Of a stretch of 54,110 nt of DNA, positions 44,896 to 53,384 are shown piece by piece; positions within the stretch are counted from its first letter, which is position 1; every line of letters starts with the position of its first letter. Both the position numbers and the translations under genes were made by a program. The stretch is from a candidate division WOR-3 bacterium. Its GTDB lineage: Bacteria > Hydrothermota > Tepidihabitantia > SM23-42 > JAOAFX01. Below the pieces are notes generated by a model that had not been told where the DNA came from, ran no database searches, and saw only the letters and a list, made by a program, of their open reading frames with translations. The stretch spans positions 1 to 54,110 of the forward strand of contig JBDRWD010000012.1 of assembly GCA_039802205.1 (NCBI GenBank). The letters are read 5' to 3'.

Positions 44896-45858
44896 TTACC
44901 TCATATTGTCAGCTGACAACATCCCAACAAGTTGCTTATGGAAATGAGTTAAGATTAATCTCTTTGCAATAGCTATGCTACTGTTCAAGATATAATCCTG
45001 GGCAGATTTATCCGTATAATAACCTGTGTTTCTTGTCGTCGTCTGGCGGATTATAATCACATCCGCATCGCTACTTCTCTCGGTTTCCATGGTTATTCTT
45101 GCCAATTCCAAGGGCTTAAATTTTCCGAACAACCCAAAGGATTTACGGGCAATAATAACGCAATAACAATATGGATATTTTTTGCCCTGTACATCATTTA
45201 TTGAGATCTGAAATTGCACCCCGATAAATTCGGGTGGTGCTCCGAGGAATTTAATCAGAATTCGAGTATCATTGGGGAACTGACCTTGTTCTGTGGTACC
45301 AATTTCAAGATAAGGTATTATCTTTATATTTGGATCTTTGGAAAAAACTGGATGTTTGAGAATCCGTCTGATTATTGGTATTTTAACATCAAGGTTATTA
45401 GGAATCCAGACCGAACGCCTGCCGCTCAGTAATACACCACTAAAGAGAATTGAAGAATCAACTATCAAGGCCATTATTGGGAATGAATCACCGATATGGG
45501 CTATCTCACTAAAGATCTCCAGTAAAACTGGAGCAAAAAATATTAAGAAGAAAACAATGAGGAAAAAAACCACACATCCAGTAGCACCACCACTAATATT
45601 GCTCAGACGCTGGCAGTGATTGTAAACCTGCTCGATCCTTTCCGGTGTGACTTCTTTCCATTCTAATTTCTGGGCACGGATTGGCTTGATTGTAAAATTT
45701 CTAATCAAATTCAATAACAGGCAGAAAATGAAAAAGGGCAGGCCGACAAGGATATTTCGTGAACTCAATTGTAGAACAAAACCCACAAAGAAAAGGACTA
45801 CAGTAAGAAAATTTCTAAGTTTTGGGGAGATTTTACCCAGAAGATAATAGTTATCCAT
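44896..45858 (-). CDS. Membrane protein of unknown function in the radical SAM operon
   Basis: 320 residues. Two N-terminal transmembrane helices (about 16-33 and 36-53), a cytoplasmic linker, and two more helices (about 95-118 and 128-147), followed by a soluble C-terminal domain of about 170 residues rich in beta-strand (IKIIPYLEIGTTEQ; RILIKFLGAPPEFIGVQFQISI) and ending in helices. I do not recognise it. Its ATG is two bases past the radical SAM stop, so translation is coupled; it is a candidate component of the same system. Confidence 0.82.
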   Translation of the reverse strand: MDNYYLLGKISPKLRNFLTVVLFFVGFVLQLSSRNILVGLPFFIFCLLLNLIRNFTIKPIRAQKLEWKEVTPERIEQVYNHCQRLSNISGGATGCVVFFLIVFFLIFFAPVLLEIFSEIAHIGDSFPIMALIVDSSILFSGVLLSGRRSVWIPNNLDVKIPIIRRILKHPVFSKDPNIKIIPYLEIGTTEQGQFPNDTRILIKFLGAPPEFIGVQFQISINDVQGKKYPYCYCVIIARKSFGLFGKFKPLELARITMETERSSDADVIIIRQTTTRNTGYYTDKSAQDYILNSSIAIAKRLILTHFHKQLVGMLSADNMR

Positions 45859-45860
45859 TT

Positions 45861-47306
45861 CTAATGTTGGGAGGAACGACTTACCATCTGTAACCTGAGT
45901 TCATTTCCGTCTGATGAATTTTCAATTTTATGAAAATCGCCGCCGGAGATGGTGTCTACAGAAAATACCTTCCAGAATAACGGGCATGCCCCTTTGCATA
46001 TGCTAAATTCGGGACATTTATGGCACTCCGCTGGTGCATAATCAGCATTCTTGAAATAACTCAACATTGGTGAATGCCAGATTTCTTTAAAACTGCTTTT
46101 TAATAACGAACCCACTGGTTCTCTCCAGGATGAACAGGGCAGAATATTGCCCATCGGGTCTATGCTCAATAATCCAGTAATTGCCGCACAGGATTTGTTC
46201 CCCAATCCATGAGCAATAGGATTGAATTTGCATACCGGAATTGGTGAATACCATAAAAATTGAATATTCTCTTTCTGGGCATGGTTTTTAATCTTCAAGA
46301 TGTGCGGACCAACCTCTGAGTATGATATCCATAAATCACTTCTCCGCTCGGCGCTTCCACAAGGAATCATAAGATTCATCGATAGTCTCTTCAAACCTAA
46401 GGATTTGATCAATAACAATATCCCTTCAAGGTGATTTATATTGTGTCTTGAGATCGTGGTATTTGTATGGACAGCGATTCGCTCTTCAAGAAGATATTTT
46501 ATTCCGGCAATGGTTTTCGCAAAAGAATTCTTTACCCCGGTAATCCTGTCATGTATTTCGCCATTCGGACCTTCCAAACTTACCTGGGCACTTTTCAAAC
46601 CCGCCTTTTTCAAAGATCTTACGAGTTCCTTTGTAAGCATCGTCCCATTCGTTATTAAATTTGTCCACAAACCAATCTTATTTGCATATTCTACCAGAGA
46701 TACAATATCTTTCCTTAATAAAGGCTCACCTCCAGTAAAACTGACTGATGGTACTTTTGCTTCATTGTATATCTTGAATATAATCTTTTTCAAATCTGCT
46801 GTCTTTAGTTCAGGATAATCTTTATGGCCCACATAGCAGAATTCACAATTGAGATTGCACCGATAGGTGACAGCAATCTCAGAGAGGATTGGATAATCAT
46901 TTAAATCACTCTTAAATTCATAATAGGATACACTCTCTCTCTTCTCACCTTCTTTCAGACACCCCCTAACAATAGCCCGCAAATCGCAGAAAAAGTAGTA
47001 CAGATCTTTTCTCTTTTCATCATCATCACCAGTCAGTTCAATAAGGTTTTTTATCGAATTACCTTTTAAAAGATAGTTTAAAATCGCAACTCCTGATTGA
47101 TTTAATTTATAAACCTGATTGGGAATCAAAATTAAAAGATTATCTAACTCCCTCACATAAATATAAGGCTTGATCTCTTTTATAAACCCATCCACCCATT
47201 CTAAATCGATTATTTCTTTTACCTCTGATTTCGGAAATGTAGAATTTGTCGGATGATCGGCATACAGATTCTGGAATTTAATTTTTCTATTAAAATATCT
47301 TAACAT
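45861..47306 (-). CDS. Radical SAM/SPASM maturase with PqqD-like N-terminus
   Basis: 481 residues. Residues about 48-120 form a PqqD-like peptide-recognition domain (NQVYKLNQSGVAILNYLL). The radical SAM core has C150-x3-C154-x2-C157 (CNLNCEFC) for the 4Fe-4S cluster and SFTGGEPLLR for SAM. The C-terminal SPASM domain has its Cys array (CKFNP, CAAITG, NILPCSSW, ECHKCPEFSICKGACPLFW) for auxiliary clusters. This PqqE/sactisynthase layout modifies ribosomal peptides or proteins. Its ATG directly follows the stop of the His-Ser-Ala-Cys repeat gene (TAA-ATG), which is the obvious substrate. Confidence 0.93.
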   Translation of the reverse strand: MLRYFNRKIKFQNLYADHPTNSTFPKSEVKEIIDLEWVDGFIKEIKPYIYVRELDNLLILIPNQVYKLNQSGVAILNYLLKGNSIKNLIELTGDDDEKRKDLYYFFCDLRAIVRGCLKEGEKRESVSYYEFKSDLNDYPILSEIAVTYRCNLNCEFCYVGHKDYPELKTADLKKIIFKIYNEAKVPSVSFTGGEPLLRKDIVSLVEYANKIGLWTNLITNGTMLTKELVRSLKKAGLKSAQVSLEGPNGEIHDRITGVKNSFAKTIAGIKYLLEERIAVHTNTTISRHNINHLEGILLLIKSLGLKRLSMNLMIPCGSAERRSDLWISYSEVGPHILKIKNHAQKENIQFLWYSPIPVCKFNPIAHGLGNKSCAAITGLLSIDPMGNILPCSSWREPVGSLLKSSFKEIWHSPMLSYFKNADYAPAECHKCPEFSICKGACPLFWKVFSVDTISGGDFHKIENSSDGNELRLQMVSRSSQH

Positions 47307-48815
47307 TTATCTTGCTCCACCACTCACACATGCTGAATGGCAAGCACTATGGCAGGCGGAGTGACAGGCGGAATGGCAGGCTGAATGACAGGCAGAGTGG
47401 CAGGCATCGTGGCAGGCGGTATGGACATAACACGCACTGTGGCAAGCATCAGAGCGGACAAATGTTGAATAATCTTTTATCGGTTCACCATAAATTACAA
47501 ACCCATCCTCCATCTGCTGAAAATGCCCCCTGCGGTCAAATGGTCGGTTCCGCAGGTAATAATAGTAATACATATCTTTATACTCTTCATCAATCGGTTC
47601 TTCCACCTCGGGTGAGCCAATCTTTTCGGTATAGTATGCCTTGGTCGCCTCTATGTCACAATCCCATGCCTTTGCCTGAATATTCTCAACTATCTGCATG
47701 ATTAGCGCCTTCAATCCAGCTTCATCCATTGTGCCATCACTCCTTATTGCATCCAGAAACATTGACTCATAATATTTTAATCCTGGGGGACGCTGTAAAA
47801 TTGAAAGTTTTATCGGATTATAATTCAGAATTTGTAAAACTCCCTCTTTCTGTAATTTTTCAGCGATAATGGTAAAAACTTTATTCACTGGATAATCCAA
47901 TAATATTGTGGCTTCAATTAAATCAAGTTTTGCCACCTTGCCTGATTTTCTAAATGTGGCTACCTCAATTTTGGGTGGCATCCAATCCATCCTGAGCCAT
48001 TGTAAACTCTGAACATCACTGTAAAGCCCTTTTATTTTCTGAGCCTTTTTGTTGGAATAAAATAAGTAAGGAATGACTGAAAATAACATATAGATTAACT
48101 CATAAGGGATAAAAAACTTTTTGCGACGCTCAGGTTTGACCTCAATTCTGCCGAATCTCTCGGTATTAAAATAACTTGCTGGAATATACTGTTGAATCAA
48201 CAATTTTTCTTTGGATGCGACATCCTCTTTATGAATTCGAACTGTAAAGTAGTGTTTTCCATTATAATCTTGGCCAAAATAATCTAATAGATATCTCTCG
48301 TTCATAAATTTTTCAGTTCGAAATCCGTATGCCTCAGGATTGACCTGTTTGCCTTTTACTTCTATCGGATAAGAGACTTTGACCGTATAATGTTCCATTG
48401 GTTCATCCCATTGGGGTGGTGCCCAGTGGAACACAACGAGTTCACCAAATTCACTCTGGGTTACTGCAAGATTACCGCTCCTTCCCAGGTCACCACCAAA
48501 ATGTATAATAAAAGTTATTTGACCAGGTCCATATCTCCTTCCTTTGCTGAGCACGATATCATATTTTCCACCACCGAGGTCTCTAATATCTATAGGATAT
48601 TTATTGTTGTATTCATCAAGGGCACAGGAATTCTGATAGTCAAAAAAAGGTTCGACCGATAATCCCTGAAGATAGAATGCACTCATTGAGCCGGAAATAA
48701 CATTCCAGCGAATTTTATAAACAAAGTCTGCCCGACCATCCTGCCAAAGGGCAACATCTACTTCAACCCATTTTAATTCGGCGGTTAAGGTTAGTAAACA
48801 AAAAAGGACTATCAT
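47307..48815 (-). CDS. DUF2207-like membrane protein with C-terminal Cys-His-Ser-Ala repeat
   Basis: 502 residues. Signal peptide about 1-12, a beta-rich ectodomain (about 13-225), one transmembrane helix (about 236-256, FIPYELIYMLFSVIPYLFY), a cytoplasmic winged-helix-like region (about 280-430; EATILLDYPVNKVFTIIAEK), and a tail (455-502) with ten cysteines every four residues: DACHSACYVHTACHDAC, then six HSAC units and VSGGAR. The first 450 residues resemble DUF2207/TIGR04222-type membrane proteins. The tail faces the cytoplasm, where the adjacent radical SAM enzyme could modify it. Confidence 0.86.
   Translation of the reverse strand: MIVLFCLLTLTAELKWVEVDVALWQDGRADFVYKIRWNVISGSMSAFYLQGLSVEPFFDYQNSCALDEYNNKYPIDIRDLGGGKYDIVLSKGRRYGPGQITFIIHFGGDLGRSGNLAVTQSEFGELVVFHWAPPQWDEPMEHYTVKVSYPIEVKGKQVNPEAYGFRTEKFMNERYLLDYFGQDYNGKHYFTVRIHKEDVASKEKLLIQQYIPASYFNTERFGRIEVKPERRKKFFIPYELIYMLFSVIPYLFYSNKKAQKIKGLYSDVQSLQWLRMDWMPPKIEVATFRKSGKVAKLDLIEATILLDYPVNKVFTIIAEKLQKEGVLQILNYNPIKLSILQRPPGLKYYESMFLDAIRSDGTMDEAGLKALIMQIVENIQAKAWDCDIEATKAYYTEKIGSPEVEEPIDEEYKDMYYYYYLRNRPFDRRGHFQQMEDGFVIYGEPIKDYSTFVRSDACHSACYVHTACHDACHSACHSACHSACHSACHSACHSACVSGGAR
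47328..47444 (-). repeat. 12-bp coding repeat encoding His-Ser-Ala-Cys units
   Basis: Tandem units of CAY-TCN/AGT-GCN-TGY. Codons vary between units (TCT, TCA, TCC, AGT for Ser; GCC, GCG, GCT, GCA for Ala; TGT and TGC for Cys), so the peptide is conserved while the DNA is not. This argues for selection on the protein and against fresh slippage. Confidence 0.9.
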
Positions 48816-48850
48816 TTTTAAGTGCTTAGGCTTTTTTAGATTTTAAGTAG

Positions 48851-49240
48851 CTATTCTTTCGTCGCCTCAATCCTTGCTCTCAATAAATCCGCCTGCGCTG
48901 CTATAAAATCTGAATACGCCTGCTTAGCCTGGGACCAGCAGGTCTCATCTGGAAATGAATTTACTATTCCCTGCCAGATGAGTTTATATACCTTTTCCAG
49001 AGTCTGTTTAGCATCACCCTTGCCCGTGTATTCAAATTGAGCAATCACTGGCACAGGCTGAAAGACCGGCGTTGGTCCCGCAACGACCTCGGTCTGGGCA
49101 CCTAAGAATACCACTCCCATTTCTTCAATCACATCAAGATGAATTCTTATTGCAGATAATACCGAGGCTATAGAATAATCTGCGGTTGAAAATTTCATTA
49201 TTAGTAGATTATTCTTTATCTCGCCGAATGGCAAATTCAT
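48851..49240 (-). CDS. Hypothetical protein, first gene of the radical SAM operon
   Basis: 129 residues, no signal peptide. N-terminal region KNNLLIMKFSTADYSIASVLSAIRIHLDVIEEMG, a Pro-rich middle (AGPTPVFQPVPVIAQF), and a helical C-terminus (ETCWSQAKQAYSDFIAAQADLLRARI). I do not recognise a family. AAAGGAGG lies four bases before ATG 49240, behind a near-consensus promoter. A small helper, recognition protein, or second substrate of the maturase are all possible; it has one Cys only, so a repeat-type substrate is unlikely. Confidence 0.75.
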   Translation of the reverse strand: MNLPFGEIKNNLLIMKFSTADYSIASVLSAIRIHLDVIEEMGVVFLGAQTEVVAGPTPVFQPVPVIAQFEYTGKGDAKQTLEKVYKLIWQGIVNSFPDETCWSQAKQAYSDFIAAQADLLRARIEATKE

Positions 49241-51089: not shown

Positions 51090-51929
51090 TCAACGGAGTT
51101 CTTCAAGTATTTTATTGGTGAGATAAAGACTTTCTTCCTGACTCAGCGCAATATTCATTTCAATCGACCAAAGATACTGGTCAACCTTTTTATCCTTGAG
51201 TCTTAGATTAAGTATCTTTTCCTTCTGTTCTTCACAAAGCCGGTCGACTGCTACAAGATTAAAATCCAAATCAAATTTATTTTTTAAAAATTGTAAAACC
51301 ACCCTTTGCATTTGAAAATCGTCCACAAGTGCAAGATAAAAAGGTATTTCACACCATAAACTCATTCCCAAAAGATTCCTTTTCTTTGCCTCATACAAGA
51401 GGTAACTGCTCACTGCCGGCGTCCCCTCGTAAGTTAAGTTATAAAGTCCATAATTGCTCATCTGCTCTTTCATTTTGTTTTCATTATAAACCGCCCATAG
51501 CTTTCGGGTGACATTATAACTGATATTTGCTACAAAACCGTTTAATGTATATAATACGGAGATAGAAAGTTCCGGGCAAAGGTAGTCAACGATGACCTCA
51601 ATAAACCGATAATGATTCACCTGGGGCTCATAACCTTTGAATATTACTAAATTTAACTGCGGCGAATAGTAAAATCTATTATGTGGAATATAGGCAACAT
51701 CATTCTCAATATCCACACCATTTAAAGGGTAAAAAATCTGCGGGATTATTTCACCGATGCAATCAAGGCCAATCTTTTCATTGATTGCCCGAAAAGCTGC
51801 CTCACCAATCCGCCCCGGAATTTTTTCCCAGATTATGAATAACTCGGGTTTATTTAATTCCGGTTTTTTAATCCACCTTACCCAATCACTTGCCTGATTC
51901 TTTTTGGAAAAATTCCCGGAAAAATTCAT
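51090..51929 (-). CDS. PAC2-family protein, second of a tandem pair
   Basis: 279 residues. Shares the PAC2 (proteasome assembly chaperone-like) layout with its upstream neighbour: IIWEKIPGRIGEAAF (compare MLCGWPGIGRIGLIA), HNRFYYSP (compare RNKFYFKK), and TPAVSSYLLYEAKKRNLLGMSLWCEIPFYLA. It is more diverged, lacking the Gly-rich core loops. GGGAG precedes ATG 51929, which lies inside the end of the upstream gene (44-bp overlap). Bacterial PAC2 proteins have no established role. Confidence 0.8.
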   Translation of the reverse strand: MNFSGNFSKKNQASDWVRWIKKPELNKPELFIIWEKIPGRIGEAAFRAINEKIGLDCIGEIIPQIFYPLNGVDIENDVAYIPHNRFYYSPQLNLVIFKGYEPQVNHYRFIEVIVDYLCPELSISVLYTLNGFVANISYNVTRKLWAVYNENKMKEQMSNYGLYNLTYEGTPAVSSYLLYEAKKRNLLGMSLWCEIPFYLALVDDFQMQRVVLQFLKNKFDLDFNLVAVDRLCEEQKEKILNLRLKDKKVDQYLWSIEMNIALSQEESLYLTNKILEELR

Positions 51930-52818
51930 CGCTATGCTCCCGGAACCATTTTATCTCCTCATCGCTTATCGGGGTGCGGGGAATCTGACTATCCTTTAAC
52001 TGTTCAAAACTTTCGGTTATCTTTTCCTTCACCTCTGTGGGTAAACTATCCAAAAAAGTATTGAGGATTCTGTCCACACTCCTATCTACCTGCTCAATCA
52101 GGGGTTCTAATATCGAAAGGTCAAGGCGCAAGTGGAGCATTTTGGACAAAACCTCAAGGACCGCCTTAGAACCTTTAGGCCAAGGAATAGGTAGCCATTG
52201 GAGGTAATAGGGAATTTCGCCCATCAAACATATCCCCGCTATCCCGTAGATTCTTGCCACTCCTAATGTCAAACCATTCAGTCCGGTTATCGTACCTTGA
52301 CCACCCCTTCCTTCTACTTCCGACATCAAGACGGTATTTTCATACTGCTTAATTTCACGGATGAGTGTCTCTGTATTTGGAACTGCCCAGACCCTGGGTC
52401 GTGAGGCGTGATGAATTTGGGCAACCGCTGCCCCGGAGGTGTAAATCCTTTTGACCCCATATTTTAAACCCGTCTCAATCACCATCCGGGCAATCTGATA
52501 AGCCACCTCTCCACGGGCATAACCACCCTGGGTCTCAGAAGGCTGCTCATCGCCAATAAAAAATAATAGGTCACAAGTCTCGGTCTTTTTGAAATAGAAT
52601 TTATTTCGGGGGAACGTCAAAGATTTGATGACACCATCTTCTATTGTGACAGTGGTGGGGTAGAAAAAATCCTGCGGCTCAATCTCACCTAGCTCTTCAG
52701 CCTGCAATTGTTCGCGTAGTGTATCAATGGCAATCAGGCCAATACGCCCAATACCTGGCCAGCCACATAACATTATCGGCTCTTTCAAATCGACTTCCTT
52801 ATAAATTCTTACCCCCAT
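51886..52818 (-). CDS. PAC2-family protein (ATP-grasp-enzyme-associated type)
   Basis: 310 residues. Clear PAC2 domain: PIMLCGWPGIGRIGLIAID (about 15-33), LLFFIGDEQPS (about 82-92), YTSGAAVAQIHHASRPRVWA (about 126-145), GLNGLTLGVARIYGI (about 177-191), CLMGEIPYYLQW. Related to archaeal and eukaryotic proteasome-assembly chaperones, but there is no proteasome gene in the window. ATG 52818 follows the efp stop by two bases (TGA-TT-ATG), so translation is coupled. Confidence 0.87.
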   Translation of the reverse strand: MGVRIYKEVDLKEPIMLCGWPGIGRIGLIAIDTLREQLQAEELGEIEPQDFFYPTTVTIEDGVIKSLTFPRNKFYFKKTETCDLLFFIGDEQPSETQGGYARGEVAYQIARMVIETGLKYGVKRIYTSGAAVAQIHHASRPRVWAVPNTETLIREIKQYENTVLMSEVEGRGGQGTITGLNGLTLGVARIYGIAGICLMGEIPYYLQWLPIPWPKGSKAVLEVLSKMLHLRLDLSILEPLIEQVDRSVDRILNTFLDSLPTEVKEKITESFEQLKDSQIPRTPISDEEIKWFREHSDEFFREFFQKESGK

Positions 52819-52820
52819 AA

Positions 52821-53384
52821 TCAACTCTTGACCCGGTCCAGATATTTCTTGGTTTCTACATCAATTCTTATTATATCACCAGATTTAATAAACTGGGGCA
52901 CCATAATCTCCATCCCGTTTTCCAGAATTGCCGATTTATATGCAGCATCAAACTCGCCTTTTAAGCCTTCACCGGTTGATGTCACTTTAATCTCAACGGT
53001 TTTAGGTATTATCACATCTATCGGCTCTCCTTCGTAGAACTCAACCTTTAGCTTCGCCCCTGGAGTGAGAAATTTGCTAAATTCACCCAATTTTTCAGTC
53101 CCAATCAGAATCTGATCATAGGTCTCAGGATGCATGAAACAAAAATTCCTGCCATCCTGATAAAGAAATTCCATGGGTACCACATCTACGATAACATCTT
53201 CAATCTTGTCATCCGGATGAAATCTTTGCTCGGTTAGACTATGAGTCCTGAGATTGCGCAACTTCGCATGGACAATCGAACCAAATTTTGCAGTACCCGC
53301 TTTAATTTCGGCCGAAATAACCTTGTATATCTCATTATGTAATTTTATTATCATGCCGATTCTTAATTCCGACGCCTGCACCAT
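52821..53384 (-). CDS. efp: Translation elongation factor P
   Basis: 187 residues, standard three-domain EF-P. It relieves ribosome stalling at proline runs. N-terminal KOW-like domain with the tip loop AGTAKFGSIVHAKL (Lys33 aligns with the residue that is modified in other bacteria); OB domain with MEFLYQDGRNFCFMHPETYDQ; C-terminal signature KVEFYEGEPIDVIIPKTVE and TGEGLKGEF. AAGGAG precedes ATG 53384. First gene of the unit with the two PAC2 genes. Confidence 0.96.
   Translation of the reverse strand: MVQASELRIGMIIKLHNEIYKVISAEIKAGTAKFGSIVHAKLRNLRTHSLTEQRFHPDDKIEDVIVDVVPMEFLYQDGRNFCFMHPETYDQILIGTEKLGEFSKFLTPGAKLKVEFYEGEPIDVIIPKTVEIKVTSTGEGLKGEFDAAYKSAILENGMEIMVPQFIKSGDIIRIDVETKKYLDRVKS

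Follow-up and report, generated by a model that had tools for sequence, protein, structure and literature searches.

What does a radical SAM/SPASM protein do when it is encoded directly behind a large membrane protein whose C-terminus carries a cysteine every few residues? This question is raised by four consecutive genes on the minus strand of the window, by which we mean the whole stretch of 54,110 nucleotides analyzed, from a candidate division WOR-3 bacterium (contig JBDRWD010000012.1). The genes encode, in order, up129, a 502-aa membrane protein, a 481-aa radical SAM/SPASM protein, and dn320 (Table 1). The likely answer is that the radical SAM/SPASM protein is a dedicated maturase of the membrane protein's attached C-terminal tail and that the tail is then retained, with the action of the enzyme, its chemistry, and the topology remaining inferences.

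Table 1. Positions in the window of the cassette genes and of the protein regions discussed in the text
Feature	Position	Strand	Basis or remark
up129, small conserved protein, first cassette gene	48851..49240	-	unknown fold
502-aa membrane protein, tail carrier, likely distant DUF2207 relative	47307..48815	-	ORF and homologues
Predicted transmembrane helix, membrane protein residues 238-268	48012..48104	-	AlphaFold2 model
Cys/His tail, 48 residues (455-502), ten Cys, H-x-A-C units	47310..47453	-	homologue comparison
Radical SAM/SPASM protein, 481 aa, proposed tail maturase	45861..47306	-	PF04055, PF13186, tail co-occurrence
Maturase PqqD-like (RRE) region, about residues 50-125	46932..47159	-	weak in window protein, found in relatives
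Maturase radical SAM core, CNLNCEFC (C150, C154, C157)	46413..46871	-	invariant in 22 aligned proteins
Maturase SPASM region, C373, C391, C428, C431, C437, C441	45984..46190	-	invariant in 22 aligned proteins
dn320, membrane protein, last cassette gene, fast evolving	44896..45858	-	relatives 19-49% identical

The C-terminal sequence of the membrane protein is SDACHSACYVHTACHDAC(HSAC)6VSGGAR, and the tail holds nine His as well as Cys at residues 458, 462, 468, 472, 476, 480, 484, 488, 492, and 496 (spacing, 4,6,4,4,4,4,4,4,4). No nucleotide separates the TAA stop codon (47309-47307) from the maturase ATG at 47306. The ORF and the sequence confirm the Cys spacing, the HSAC units, the protein length, and the stop-start junction as given in a preliminary description of the locus, which had been made from the sequence alone. 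That description also inferred selection on the peptide from codon differences between the repeat units. The units do vary in their codons for Ser (TCT/TCA/TCC/AGT), Ala (GCG/GCC/GCT/GCA), Cys (TGT/TGC), and His (CAC/CAT), which excludes a recent DNA duplication of the tail repeat, and the inference was strengthened by a comparison of 34 tails.

Homologues were collected from the window's phylum (147 genomes) and by scanning 84,980 species genomes. The species scan used tail-derived patterns and therefore selects for the tail; the query of the phylum search was the entire protein, so that this search is not tail selective, and the outcomes of the two agree. The membrane gene has homologues in 23 of the phylum genomes, and 34 loci were found in the wider scan. 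Tail homologues occur in about eight phyla, in WOR-3/Stahlbacteria, Hydrothermus, Fischerbacteria, Sumerlaeota, Armatimonadota, Planctomycetota (including Kuenenia), Acidobacteria/Aminicenantes, and Riflebacteria/Ozemobacter. Two further tail hits (L037 in G117 and L038 in G023) were dropped because they were tandem repeats read in the wrong frame or came from unrelated frames. Each of the 34 complete tails compared has exactly 48 residues, ten Cys, and an identical Cys spacing, and the tails differ on average by 3.6% in amino acids versus 58% at third codon positions. Over 253 pairs, the mean identity was 96% for the tail (minimum, 83%), compared to 41% for the body (minimum, 25%) and 51% for the maturase. 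Tail conservation is far beyond chance, and its excess over that of the body, together with the divergence of third positions, indicates that selection acts on the tail peptide itself. The repeat copy number is constant inside the clade, although repeats usually vary in copy number, and a single tail copy per genome was present in the genomes searched.

The body of the membrane protein had been labeled DUF2207/TIGR04222 in the preliminary description. The window protein has no match to the DUF2207 model (PF09972); 9 of 21 homologues match it at an E value of 0.1 or better (best, 1.3e-7; one is shown above the gathering score), and through them a distant relationship to DUF2207 is likely. The TIGR04222 label was not supported, with no match for the window protein at an E value of 0.1 and none for L068, L078, and two sister proteins at 0.01. 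The protein has one signal-like segment and one predicted transmembrane helix. The AlphaFold2 model comprises a beta-sandwich ectodomain (residues 11-212; pLDDT, >90), the transmembrane helix (pLDDT, about 80), a C-terminal helical/winged-helix-like region (residues 299-443), and a tail without confident structure (pLDDT, <50). For the ectodomain model (window 48180-48785), structural similarity was seen to ribophorin I, a part of oligosaccharyltransferase, and to the N-terminal beta domain of M1 aminopeptidases (best E value, 7e-8; TM-scores of ≤0.34 in the rows shown), a likeness of fold from which no function is claimed. From the model, the tail is predicted to be on the cytoplasmic side. 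This topology, also proposed in the preliminary description, remains an inference, and for the A family, i.e., the window-type proteins, charge counts flanking the helix did not resolve it. A reading of the tail as c-type haem sites (CX3CH) was set aside, as such sites would overlap one another and a cytoplasmic location is predicted for the tail.

The radical SAM/SPASM assignment of the adjoining enzyme held (PF04055, E value of 1.8e-28; PF13186, E value of 2.1e-9). Its CxxxCxxC core and its SPASM Cys motif are present, with Cys invariant across the aligned proteins. The PqqD-like label held only in part: in the window maturase the match is below threshold (E value of 0.23, residues 61-91), while the domain was matched in 11 of 22 aligned relatives (best, 2e-5) and scored above the gathering threshold in two sister-family members. 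A PqqD-like domain is a peptide-binding module (PMC5682303). Compared to solved structures, the maturase family profile is nearest to SkfB (6efn, the best match) and PqqE, with SuiB-type 5v1q and 5wgg also matched. The best single NCBIfam matches include AhbD and NirJ/NirJ2, which are small-molecule enzymes.

The partnership between enzyme and tail is shown by genetic linkage and by co-occurrence in genomes. Of the 23 phylum genomes carrying the membrane gene, 20 have the maturase gene beside it, as do 30 of the 34 loci from the wider scan; contig ends account for two of the remaining loci and split cassettes for the other two. Within the phylum, all 24 genomes with tail evidence carry the maturase (Fisher p, about 1e-26); one extra genome (G082) has the maturase at a locus cut by the contig start, where the tail cannot be judged. 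In Armatimonadota, the tail (pattern, three H-x-A-C units) and the clade maturase occur in the same 13 of 251 genomes (p, about 5e-22), with a partial enzyme match in G332. Both G086 and G088 have a divided cassette, with up129 and the membrane protein at one site and the maturase and dn320 at another, far away on the same chromosome, and in G288 the tail gene and the maturase are on separate contigs. In G068 (L011, L085), the assembly breaks within the HSAC repeat and leaves the membrane protein and the maturase on different contigs, and the seemingly lone maturase of G079 (L088) is on a contig that starts inside the tail. Because assemblies break inside this repeat, surveys of adjacency on one contig miss such pairs. 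The preliminary description had proposed comparing co-occurrence and repeat number across relatives, and its pairing of maturase and tail held against both refuting conditions that it had set: in the phylum searches, every genome with an HSAC-type tail also had the maturase, and a maturase of this clade was not seen with another substrate. By co-occurrence and linkage, the enzyme meets the criterion of a peptide maturase that it have a dedicated, co-encoded substrate, and co-inheritance gives strong support to the pairing of enzyme and substrate.

The products of the two outer genes of the cassette are unexplained. Relatives of up129 are 50 to 96% identical, and its model (pLDDT, 85) gave no convincing fold match in a PDB comparison, nor did Pfam and NCBIfam searches give a match. 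dn320 trails the maturase even in split cassettes. Beyond the four genes, no conserved neighborhood, and in particular no recurrent protease or exporter, was found around the cassette at loci across phyla; no genes but those of the membrane protein and the maturase recur in every tail class. Elsewhere in the window, two adjacent paralogues at 51090-52824 look by eye like PAC2-type proteasome-assembly chaperones, and the gene adjoining them at 52821-53384 looks like elongation factor P.

Other tail layouts, and the tails of a sister family, pair with distinct clades of the same enzyme. Tails in Armatimonadota have nine Cys (L126, L127) or ten Cys with more HDAC units (L131). A C-type tail, running from GYDACHSACHSACHSACVH[SD]ACHSACVH... 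to a final CVSSF (L129, L132, L133, L146, L174), belongs to a clearly homologous membrane protein (26% identity over 452 aa; E value, 1e-43). Across the A- and C-type units, Ala precedes Cys in 460 of 469 and His lies three residues before Cys in 425 of 469, and the position between His and Ala is S, D, T, A, G, or N. At the C-type loci L129 and L162, a gene that appears flavodoxin-like by eye (L162 start, ILIGSPRKGGNTD) lies between membrane protein and maturase or near an unlinked maturase; it might possibly supply electrons. At the G249 locus (L163:2749-3306), a protein that looks by eye LemA-like is encoded directly upstream of the membrane protein; a pairing of LemA with DUF2207 has been noted (PMC12631010).

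The membrane protein of the sister family is DUF2207-like and distantly homologous (profile comparison E value, 1.4e-21), ends in (CA)nG(CA)nGGGR, with Cys and Ala and without His, and is adjoined by a related radical SAM/SPASM enzyme and a small transmembrane/zinc-ribbon protein (L152 and L154-L161 in Armatimonadota; L039, L042, L044, L164). Armatimonadota cassettes of this family have a second, tandem radical SAM/SPASM-type protein, and one sister locus has an SPFH/zinc-ribbon protein. The sister tail pattern occurs in 37 of 251 Armatimonadota genomes; a sister-type enzyme was matched in 34 genomes, and 31 genomes have both (Fisher p, about 3e-30). This enzyme search used a distant query, and six genomes were tail only. 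On a quick enzyme tree, the five tail classes require four changes, the minimum possible, so the match between tail layout and enzyme clade is shown. That the sister family repeats the plan with a different Cys/Ala tail speaks for the maturase reading.

In the mechanism that we propose, the maturase would bind its membrane-protein substrate, probably through the PqqD-like domain, and carry out radical chemistry at the repeated H-x-A-C units while the tail is still joined to the membrane protein. The most likely products would be Cys-centered thioether or other -2 Da cross-links, and the finished tail would be retained rather than released, forming a fixed structure on the cytoplasmic face, e.g., a metal-binding or redox site. 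The thioether or C-C cross-links of the preliminary description remain inference in the same way. Its view that the product is a modified membrane protein and not a released peptide is supported, since the absence of a conserved protease or exporter near the cassette fits a product that stays on the membrane protein; that the tail is modified at all is inferred. The frozen tail sequence speaks for a function that does not vary, e.g., as a redox or metal center, and against a diversifying antibiotic.

Several points weigh against this reading. The evidence is without experiment, and the agreement of tail class with enzyme clade could be mere co-inheritance. The PqqD match of the window protein is weak, and the profile hits to AhbD and NirJ have been mentioned. 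up129 and dn320 are unexplained, and another substrate is therefore not excluded.

Two rival explanations are unlikely rather than excluded. In one, the tail binds metals or clusters without being modified, as a metallothionein-like domain, and the enzyme makes a small-molecule cofactor or modifies up129 or dn320. Ten Cys and nine His would suffice for metal binding, AhbD and NirJ2 are among the enzyme's best NCBIfam matches, and up129 is conserved at least as well as the enzyme. However, up129 is missing beside some cassettes (L067, L069, L071), the G086/G088 split leaves it with the membrane protein and away from the enzyme, and dn320 is poorly conserved. No gene other than those of the membrane protein and the enzyme is shared by every class. 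The peptide-binding role of PqqD-like domains and the tracking of enzyme clade by tail layout also count against it. In the other, similarly improbable, the modification is not centered on Cys: C-C links at His would form three-residue H-S-A cyclophanes, for which triceptides offer the comparison, and the free thiols would bind metal. The near-constant His and Ala and the variable Ser position of the units fit this. However, Cys is the shared feature, because the sister tail has Cys and Ala but no His, and the best solved relative, SkfB, is a thioether synthase (PMC6231123). In a classical RiPP, the membrane protein would serve as a giant leader, and the modified tail would be cleaved and released, e.g., to act as a signal, metallophore, or antimicrobial. 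Such a scheme would match the usual order of recognition part and C-terminal core but is very unlikely given the lack of a conserved protease or exporter, a tail frozen across phyla unlike diversifying antimicrobial peptides, its single copy in the genomes searched, and a tail side that the AlphaFold2 model would place opposite to the outside.

The proposed maturase of an attached, retained tail can be set beside known systems. The closest are Cys-repeat radical SAM targets (TIGR04117, ACGX) and, among systems with an MNIO, membrane proteins whose tails are rich in Cys. TIGR04117 (Syntroph_Cxxx, Cys-Xaa-Xaa-Xaa repeat radical SAM target) likewise has C-terminal Cys every four residues and is a radical SAM target by annotation. 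However, its model covers 98 positions of a small protein without a membrane body, and its match to residues 456-492 is weak (E value, 2.4e-4; 21.1 bits versus a cutoff of 50, not met). The ACGX system (TIGR04340 radical SAM/SPASM) has, by name, Ala-Cys-Gly-X repeats comparable to A-C-H-S here; the sister-family enzyme scores 78 bits against TIGR04340, far under the cutoff of 400, and the ACGX target is a small peptide. TIGR04222 proteins, which have been proposed as MNIO substrates (PMC12452194), are also large membrane proteins with a Cys-rich C-terminal tail and an adjoining peptide-modifying enzyme. There, however, the enzyme is an MNIO, whereas here it is a radical SAM protein and TIGR04222 is not matched; no MNIO gene recurs beside the cassette, which has no further conserved neighbor, and the gene next to that of the membrane protein is the radical SAM gene. 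TIGR04222 tails are Ser/Gly rich, very diverse, and predicted to be periplasmic (PMC12452194), and their association with MNIO is loose, a third of genomes being without MNIO, in contrast to the tight association here. Among thioether maturases of the SkfB/CteB type (sactipeptide, SCIFF), SkfB heads the solved matches to the family profile and 5wgg aligns from the PqqD-like region onward, but the known substrates are short leader-core peptides, whereas the one proposed here is the C-terminus of a membrane protein of 500 residues. PqqE/PqqD shares the combination of radical SAM/SPASM and PqqD-type peptide binding but releases a cofactor from a small peptide, and the enzyme scores 124 of 381 bits. 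The open-licence literature searched, which did not cover subscription papers, gave no report of radical SAM genes joined with DUF2207 proteins, and a radical SAM/SPASM protein with a DUF2207-like protein bearing a near-invariant, cross-phylum tail was likewise not found there. This does not prove that the system is unreported.

A bolder version of the maturase reading, which we hold to be a little short of probable, is that the enzyme makes the tail a permanent, protein-bound, multiply cross-linked redox or metal center on the cytoplasmic face, kept nearly unaltered in sequence across many phyla, and that together with the VHSAC-layout and (CA)nG(CA)nGGGR tails it would represent a general class of membrane proteins with C-terminal tails matured by radical SAM enzymes.

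Known radical-SAM-modified ribosomal peptides are mostly short, variable, and released, whereas the apparent target here is the frozen, cofactor-site-like end of a large membrane protein. If the maturase reading is true, a permanent part of a membrane protein would be built by radical SAM maturation, and the substrate range of such maturases would widen to a DUF2207-like family of mostly uncultured phyla. The nine to twelve near-identical units would then be a natural system for iterative cross-linking. The finding points to a conserved, membrane-anchored modified peptide whose job is unknown rather than to a secreted peptide antibiotic of the usual sort.
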